Source: Williamsia maris (GTDB lineage: Bacteria; Actinomycetota; Actinomycetes; Mycobacteriales; Mycobacteriaceae). From it: DNA of 64,000 nt. Within the stretch, counting starts at the first letter, position 1. Every line of letters starts with the position of its first letter. This document shows positions 43,743-45,757 of this stretch, one piece after another. The notes under the pieces were generated by a model. That model saw only the letters and a program-made list of their open reading frames with translations. It had not been told where the DNA came from and ran no database searches. The stretch covers positions 930,001 through 994,000 of the forward strand of contig NZ_JAMTCJ010000001.1 in the NCBI RefSeq assembly GCF_024171815.1, in the 5' to 3' direction. The position numbers were made by a program, and so were the translations under genes.

Positions 43743-44672
43743 GTGCGCAGGACCCTCACATTTCTCGCCCTGGGCCTGGTTGTAGTGGTCGTCGCGCTCC
43801 TCGGGATCGACACCGGATTCGCCATCAATGCGGAGCGCAGCTTTGCGCGTGCGTTGATGGAATCGCGGGCATCCGACGGTGAATCGCCTGCCCTGCGCTA
43901 CGAACCCGAGGTCACGATCTCCGGGTTCCCCGCCACCCGATCGATAGCCGACGGTCATTACTCGGGCATCGGCATCACGGCGCGAGCAGTCGATGCGACC
44001 GGACCGGCGACCTTCTCTGGTAACCGGCAGCCCCGAATGGCGCACGCATGCACGGGTGACAATCCTTGTCATGTCGACATCCGATCGCGACTCACCGGTG
44101 TCCGGGTCGGGGGGTCGCGGTCGTTGACCCGCCCGTTCCCGCCCGAAAGCGGGTTGCGCGTGGCCTCGGCCAGCGCCTCGACGACGCTGGACACGGTGGC
44201 CCTCGGCCGGTTCCTCGGGATCGACGACCTGACGGTGAACACTCCAGCCCCTCGCGGAAAGGCGGGCGGAGGCGGCCCCGGCGACGGCCTGCTCTCCCGG
44301 ACGTCGGGAATCCTGATGACCGGAACGGTCCAGACGGCGCGGCCCGACGTGCGGGAAGTGAAGGTCAGCGTCACTGTCGACGTATCCGTGCGCAACGGAT
44401 CGCTGCACCTCGAGGCGACCGGTTTCTACGACGGACCAGAGGAGCACTCGGGCACCACCGTCGCCCCGGACGACTCCGACGTCGTGCTTGGCCGGTTCAC
44501 CGCCACCCTCCCGCCGTTGCCGATGGCCTGGGGCACAACGGCCACGTCTGCCCGGAGCAGCGGCAGCGACCTCATGCTCGAGGGCACTCCGCATCCCGAG
44601 ATCTACTCACCGTTGCTGTTCCTCGACGCGGAGAGCGTGCACTGGATGTACTACACCGGTCCGCCCCGATGA
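43743..44672 (+). CDS. lmeA: LmeA-type phospholipid-binding protein (DUF2993)
   Basis: A 309-residue exported or anchored protein: uncleaved-looking N-terminal hydrophobic segment (3-25), then a DUF2993 beta-rich domain beginning at [18 protein letters not shown]. In mycobacteria LmeA binds phospholipids in the periplasm and supports mannan elongation of lipomannan. GTG 43743 has GGAGGG 7 nt upstream. It is divergent from glnR-mshD and lies just before the cysteine-rich leader. Confidence 0.88.
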
Positions 44673-44716
44673 GCCGCTGGTCAGATGATCGCGCGGCCTT
44701 TGTTACCCTCGACCCC

Positions 44717-44797
44717 ATGCTGACGCGCCGTGAGTTCATGCTCACCCGCCGCCGGGCGATCGACTTCTGTCGATTCGCCACCTGCCGCTGTCGCTAG
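44717..44797 (+). CDS. Cysteine-rich leader peptide (attenuator uORF)
   Basis: A 26-residue ORF, MLTRREFMLTRRR then AIDFCRFATCRCR, with Cys codons at 18, 23 and 25 just before the stop. TACCCT ends 7 nt before the ATG, so it is leaderless. Mycobacterial sulfur operons carry such Cys-rich leaderless ORFs, where slow decoding at Cys codons relieves sequestration of the downstream Shine-Dalgarno (published mechanism for the family). The sulfurtransferase gene begins 126 bp downstream. That it acts as a cysteine sensor here is inference from form and position. Confidence 0.85.
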   Translation: MLTRREFMLTRRRAIDFCRFATCRCR

Positions 44798-44923
44798 TCG
44801 GGTCCTTCGCGGTCTCACCGCCACCCGACCACATCCGTTCCATCCGCGCCGTATCTCGCTGCGCACATCCCACCGATGAACCCTCGGGCAAAACATCACG
44901 TACGTCCCTATGAAAGGAACACC

Positions 44924-45757
44924 ATGGCTCGCTCCGATGTCCTGGTCAGCGCCGACTGGGCTGAGCAGAACCTGAACACCGACAAGGTCGTGCTCGTCGA
45001 GGTCGACGAGGACACCACCGCCTACGACGGCGGCCACATCGCCGGCGCGATCAAGCTCGACTGGAAGGCGGACCTGCAGGACCAGGTCCGTCGCGACTTC
45101 CTGAACCAGGAGCAGTTCTCCGACCTGCTGTCGACACGCGGCATCGCCAACGACGACACCGTGATCCTGTACGGCGGCAACAACAACTGGTTCGCCGCCT
45201 ACGCCTACTGGTACTTCAAGCTGTACGGCCACAAGGACGTCCGCCTGCTCGACGGTGGTCGCAAGAAGTGGGAGCTCGACGGCCGCCCGCTGTCGACCGA
45301 CGCCGTGTCGCGTCAGGGCACCTCGTACAAGGCCGAGGCCCCCGACCTGTCGATCCGTGCGTTCCGCGACGAGGTCATCGACGCCATCGGCACCAAGAAC
45401 CTGCTCGACATCCGGTCGCCCGACGAGTACTCGGGCAAGATCCTCGCGCCGGCCCACCTCCCGCAGGAGCAGAGCCAGCGTCCCGGCCACATCCCCGGCG
45501 CGGTCAACGTGCCGTGGAGCAAGGCCGCCAACGAGGACGGCACCTTCAAGTCCGACGACGAGCTCAAGGAGCTCTACGACGGTGTCGGCATCGATCCCGC
45601 CAAGGGCACCATCGCCTACTGCCGCATCGGCGAGCGTTCGTCGCACAGCTGGTTCGCACTGACCCAGCTGCTCGGCTACGACAACGTCAAGAACTACGAC
45701 GGCAGCTGGACCGAATACGGCTCTCTGGTGGGCGCCCCCATCGAGCTTGGAGAATAG
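44924..45757 (+). CDS. sseA: Thiosulfate sulfurtransferase (rhodanese), CysA2/SseA type
   Basis: A 277-residue two-domain rhodanese. The C-terminal domain has the active loop CRIGERS with Cys233; the N-terminal domain is degenerate at that position, as usual. It moves sulfane sulfur from thiosulfate to a thiol acceptor. Length and active-site position match mycobacterial CysA2. ATG 44924 follows GAAAGGAAC by a few bases. It is under the proposed Cys-leader control and overlaps the signals of sseC downstream. Confidence 0.94.
   Translation: MARSDVLVSADWAEQNLNTDKVVLVEVDEDTTAYDGGHIAGAIKLDWKADLQDQVRRDFLNQEQFSDLLSTRGIANDDTVILYGGNNNWFAAYAYWYFKLYGHKDVRLLDGGRKKWELDGRPLSTDAVSRQGTSYKAEAPDLSIRAFRDEVIDAIGTKNLLDIRSPDEYSGKILAPAHLPQEQSQRPGHIPGAVNVPWSKAANEDGTFKSDDELKELYDGVGIDPAKGTIAYCRIGERSSHSWFALTQLLGYDNVKNYDGSWTEYGSLVGAPIELGE

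Follow-up and report, generated by a model that had tools for sequence, protein, structure and literature searches.

The 26-codon open reading frame (ORF) that precedes a rhodanese gene in the window, i.e., the whole 64,000-nt stretch of Williamsia maris DNA analysed here, is most probably the Williamsia counterpart of the mycobacterial Ms5788A/cysA2 leader, a cysteine-responsive attenuator of a known kind. The ORF runs from ATG 44717 to TAG 44795–44797 and encodes the peptide MLTRREFMLTRRRAIDFCRFATCRCR. Its length, its Cys codons at positions 18, 23 and 25, the TACCCT box 7 nt ahead of its start and the 126-nt space to the rhodanese gene were all found as described in a first-pass annotation of this DNA (Table 1). 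Sequence relation, conservation, position and promoter spacing likewise support the likeness to mycobacterial polycysteine attenuators that the annotation had pointed out. We infer the cysteine response and the ribosome stalling of this leader from mycobacterial work.

Table 1 Features of the leader and its downstream genes (positions in the window) and of related loci
Feature	Position or loci	Strand	Basis or remark
-10-like box TACCCT	44704..44709	+	7 nt ahead of leader ATG; TANNNT kept in relatives
Leader ORF, 26 codons + TAG	44717..44797	+	Sequence, conservation, profile scores
Cys-bearing leader end, codons 18–25	44768..44791	+	TGT at 18 and 25, TGC at 23
Spacer, 126 nt	44798..44923	+	C-rich: 49 C and 22 G within the 114 nt 44798–44911
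Ribosome-binding site GAAAGGAAC of rhodanese gene	44912..44920	+	
cysA2-type thiosulfate sulfurtransferase, two rhodanese stretches (PF00581), 277 aa	44924..45757	+	Domain match, structure-sequence scores
sseC-like DUF1416 protein (PF07210), 102 aa	45760..46068	+	Domain match
DUF4395-like gene between leader and rhodanese	L025, L030, L039, L047, L049, L055		L049 leader below 25 bits

The position of the promoter-like box relative to the ORF is shared with related loci. All 13 loci tested have TANNNT with a gap of 5–8 nt to the leader ATG, compared with an average of 0.2% of positions in the background. Of the 22 loci whose leader is adjacent to the gene, this test and the ribosome-placement folding described below covered 13; L027, which has a GTG start, and eight more distant loci were omitted. 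Position 44717 is taken as the conserved start because seven of the eight same-genus loci have a Leu codon where the window has ATG at codon 8; the internal ATG at 44738 was ruled out as a start on the same grounds. The transcript would begin at or next to the leader start codon, in a probable leaderless arrangement.

The first-pass annotation had named the rhodanese gene sseA. Its product scores 509 bits to 3aax/3hwi, which we take to be cysA2, vs. 310 bits to 3hzu, named sseA, and an sseA-like gene with 463 bits to 3hzu is located elsewhere in the same genome (L002). Judged by these scores, the rhodanese gene is cysA2-like and not sseA, and the earlier name does not stand. Upstream of the leader lie an LmeA-like gene and genes for a GlnR-type regulator and a GNAT acetyltransferase, neighbours that presumably match the gene order around Rv0815–Rv0819. 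The closest rhodanese among the matches listed (94% identity) belongs to Rhodococcus sp. Leaf247 (L062). At that locus, a stretch of 1115 nt (1489–2603) extending from the ribosome-binding site through the rhodanese gene and beyond is 86% identical to the window's genus, whereas the locus overall matches Rhodococcoides kroppenstedtii (L109, 73%) and carries the leader of that group at a greater distance upstream. The pattern suggests that this strain received its cysA2-sseC pair from a donor resembling Williamsia, by replacement below a leader that stayed in place.

Profile searches place the window leader near known families at scores below their curated limits. The NCBIfam profile leader_Ms5788A (NF042933) matched it with 30.9 bits (E 1.6e-7; curated cut-off 45), and cis_reg_atten (NF042934) matched residues 8–25 with 24.2 bits (E 1.8e-5), below its cut-off of 27. 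The Ms5788A profile gave 34.3 and 37.1 bits for two leaders of the genus, 25.4 bits for a relative in the family (L023) and 54.6, 46.2 and 32.4 bits for three other leaders. When a leader profile was built from 37 of the 39 leaders outside the genus, the window ORF ranked first of 1613 reading-frame fragments (E 6.6e-6), the next fragment having an E value of 0.18. A whole-genome search with cis_reg_atten returned the window leader as the second of nine weak matches (E 8.1e-4), none of them over the cut-off; since 10 of the 14 genomes searched as controls yielded weak matches too, this model proves little by itself.

With the Ms5788A leader and the uORF before cysA2 (Rv0815, Msmeg_5788), the window leader shares the position before a cysA2-type gene, the LTxRRxxDxCR core, the Cys-rich end and, probably, the leaderless arrangement. 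It differs in carrying three Cys, with Cys-Arg-Cys replacing a run, and in lying directly before cysA2, whereas some relatives have a DUF4395-like gene in between. The contiguous run of Cys codons by which polycysteine attenuators are recognized is absent from the window leader. Cys-Arg-Cys occurs in the window and at two other loci of the genus, and Cys-Cys-Cys at the remaining five of eight. The core is also related to that of the Cys-rich Ms4527A leader (NF042936), although in that case the downstream gene encodes a sulfite/nitrite reductase. A second Cys leader in the same genome (L004:1468–1600 on C3, near 324171) is assigned to the Ms4527A family with 39.6 bits (cut-off 45) and is located ahead of a sulfite/nitrite reductase gene. 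Visual inspection places the end of this leader within a stem (TCTTCTG...CAGAAGA) that is followed by a T run and resembles an intrinsic terminator; no counterpart of this stem was found for the window leader.

Both the locus and the class of mechanism are already published for mycobacteria. In PMC4633059, a conserved, Cys-clustered leaderless uORF is described before cysA2 (Rv0815) and Msmeg_5788, with ribosome occupancy at the M. smegmatis ortholog, and attenuation is proposed. PMC1262725 described Cys-run leaders before mycobacterial cys operons in 2005, PMC9094748 reports that six such ORFs are predicted in M. tuberculosis, and PMC9031893 and PMC13236596 cite a 2020 M. smegmatis study for cysteine-dependent attenuation. 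The annotation had held that the ORF extends such attenuators to this sulfurtransferase pair, a claim that fails because PMC4633059 already contains the cysteine uORF at cysA2/Msmeg_5788; an NCBIfam family, Ms5788A, exists as well. The finding is therefore an ordinary one, given that the same leader at the same genes has been described in mycobacteria.

Leaders were compared across relatives. A rhodanese match at E 1e-100 or better was present in 51 of 61 genomes, W. maris included, and the other 10 had no match at this level. Of 52 rhodanese places, 50 were examined (the window's own among them; a second place in G029 and the place in G010 were omitted), and a leader with at least 25 bits was detected at 47 of the 50, close to the gene at 22 loci and farther up at 25. 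This proportion is partly by construction because the profile, which also underlies the count in the second set below, was trained on 18 of those loci. All eight loci of the genus carry a leader, located 125–198 nt before the rhodanese gene and separated from it by the spacer alone. At far-leader loci, the longest ORF between leader and rhodanese gene was of the same protein type in six of nine cases inspected, and the intervening ORF of L030 matches DUF4395. Of the three loci under 25 bits, L049 retains a weakly scoring relative of the leader (10.2 bits), and none was found at L054 and L057. At L054 (G015), the 300 nt before the rhodanese gene contain no leader but, by eye, a TACCGT box shortly before the ribosome-binding site of the gene, as if the leader ORF had been lost and the promoter retained; the rhodanese frame at this locus has one internal TGA. 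In a second set, comprising 80 of 584 confirmed relatives and sharing at least three genomes with the first (L063/L017, L085/L025, L097/L032), a leader was present at 79 of 80 loci among the matches listed. The sole miss is Mycobacterium asiaticum (L120, 14.1 bits), where a leader-like ORF ending 193 nt before the gene has altered core residues and a retained Cys run.

For the coupling between leader and downstream genes, one explanation is that leader and spacer RNA mask the ribosome-binding site of the rhodanese gene, which would become exposed once a ribosome halts at the Cys codons. We regard this as possible but less likely than not. Such a model, in which a stalled ribosome frees a masked ribosome-binding site, was reportedly put forward for M. 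smegmatis by Canestrari in 2020. In the window and two close relatives, the GG of the site is predicted to pair with an upstream GUUCC (probability 0.61–0.92), and outside the genus stalling would increase accessibility of the site by 0.15 at L043 and 0.09 at L021, gains as large being seen in 3% and 5% of 40 shuffles, respectively. However, a ribosome placed on the middle codon of the Cys tract shifted accessibility by −0.01 to 0.02 at all eight genus loci, the largest change in the genus at any position was 0.09 (window, Cys 25 or stop), and at three other loci outside the genus the shift for the middle codon was 0.00 to −0.04. In 93% of shuffles the site is no more open than in the window, and pairing of the spacer to the site resembles that in shuffles (mean fraction 0.55 over all 22 adjacent-leader loci). 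The sequestration of GAAAGGAAC that the annotation had proposed thus received no support at the eight genus loci from folding with and without a ribosome on the leader, a naked-RNA calculation that cannot itself exclude masking.

Other structural features of the leader RNA were also considered. A stem-loop is predicted just past the leader stop, and its stem sequence recurs in L013 and L014. A conserved hairpin at this place was rejected, as z scores of −2 or lower were confined to L013, L015, L028 and the window itself, and the average for the 22 loci was −0.62. The RNA from 44717 to 44963 is not unusually stable (z −1.19). An intrinsic terminator was rejected, none having been found in 44600–45000, and so was a known RNA family, with no Rfam match in 44500–45100.

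A second explanation is transcription attenuation by Rho, which would bind the C-rich spacer while translation of the leader sets the frequency of early stops; we consider it rather doubtful. The excess of C over G in the spacer (C minus G 0.24) ranks within the top 0.1% among 6390 overlapping windows on both strands, 46 of 47 loci have a positive skew in the stretch that follows the leader, and Rho was weakly suggested for mycobacterial cys leaders in 2005 (PMC1262725). Yet at the 25 far-leader loci the skew is higher just before the rhodanese gene (mean 0.20 vs. 0.13). C-richness is not specific to the leader because these control stretches exceed it, and the C-rich spacer was rejected as specific evidence for Rho.

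A third explanation, which we hold to be unlikely, is control by the nascent peptide, in which the conserved non-Cys residues (LTxRRxxDxCR) would act in the exit tunnel and stalling would need the peptide and not only a given supply of Cys. Among the matches listed, the 79 leaders of the 80-locus set all have Arg at the first RR position, Cys at the first and last motif positions and Arg after the first of these Cys, with the second Arg of RR in 78 and the core Asp in 76 (Glu in three). The 45 parsed leaders of the 50-locus set have the last motif Cys and the Asp in every case, the later Arg in 44 and the first motif Cys in 41. Codons for the core Asp vary (GAC in 23 and GAT in 21 of 44 leaders, L023, L043 and L055 being outside the pattern). 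Synonymous-site variation within the genus amounts to 0.122 in the leader vs. 0.146 in the rhodanese gene, a level as low being found in 79 of 250 windows. Excess constraint at the RNA level within the leader ORF was therefore rejected, its synonymous sites being no more constrained than those of the rhodanese gene, and selection seems to act on the peptide. Conservation of non-Cys residues with varied codons thus suggests that the peptide matters. Against this stands that the leaders were found using a profile of the same motif, and that RR in 45 of 45 is by construction because the parsing pattern demanded it; L023 and L043, which did not fit this pattern, carry Leu in place of the second Arg. 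The weak ORF of L120 keeps its Cys run with a decayed core.

Codon choice at the Cys positions was uneven as well. The last motif Cys codon (44789–44791 in the window) is TGT in 41 of 47 leaders of the 50-locus set and, among the matches listed, in 50 of 79 leaders of the 80-locus set, counts that are not independent because the loci are related. The codon two before it is TGT in 70 of 79 leaders among the matches listed in the 80-locus set and exceeds the last one there, so the favoured place of TGT shifts between groups. For comparison, the codon for the rhodanese active-site Cys is TGC at 50 of 50 loci and, among the matches listed, at 79 of 80, and across 32 long ORFs in the window TGT accounts for 24 of 105 codons for Cys. 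The near-invariant non-Cys residues and the mostly-TGT last motif Cys codon are mildly new. Because RR-D-R is near-invariant with free synonymous codons and TGT is favoured at the last motif Cys, the leader could also be read as a peptide-plus-codon arrest sequence, representing a new class of arrest peptides across Actinobacteria, and not as a plain counter of Cys codons; such a reading appears quite improbable to us.

That the ORF arose by chance downstream of the LmeA-like gene is exceedingly improbable: although 7 of 668 short-ORF ends in the window (start 15–60 codons before the stop) are equally Cys-rich, with at least three Cys within the last nine codons, the leader is the only one of the seven with TANNNT 5–8 nt before a start, and chance is refuted by the conservation of sequence, position and promoter spacing. 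By this conservation, the leader ORF is real and more than a chance occurrence.

In the preferred reading of the ORF as a cysteine-responsive cysA2 leader, the leaderless mRNA would start at or next to ATG 44717 and its 26 codons would be translated at once. A shortage of Cys-tRNA would slow the ribosomes at codons 18, 23 and 25, so that the cysA2-sseC pair behind the leader is expressed more strongly. With ample cysteine, translation would run to the end of the leader and expression of the pair would fall. The stall may be coupled to the genes via the freeing of a masked ribosome-binding site or via less premature transcription termination.

The leader opens no new kind of regulation. Williamsia, like most of the relatives examined, retains the cysA2 leader that was originally noticed in mycobacteria, and its form of the leader has fewer, non-contiguous Cys codons. 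Such natural variation can be used to ask which of the Cys codons, and which residues besides them, are important.
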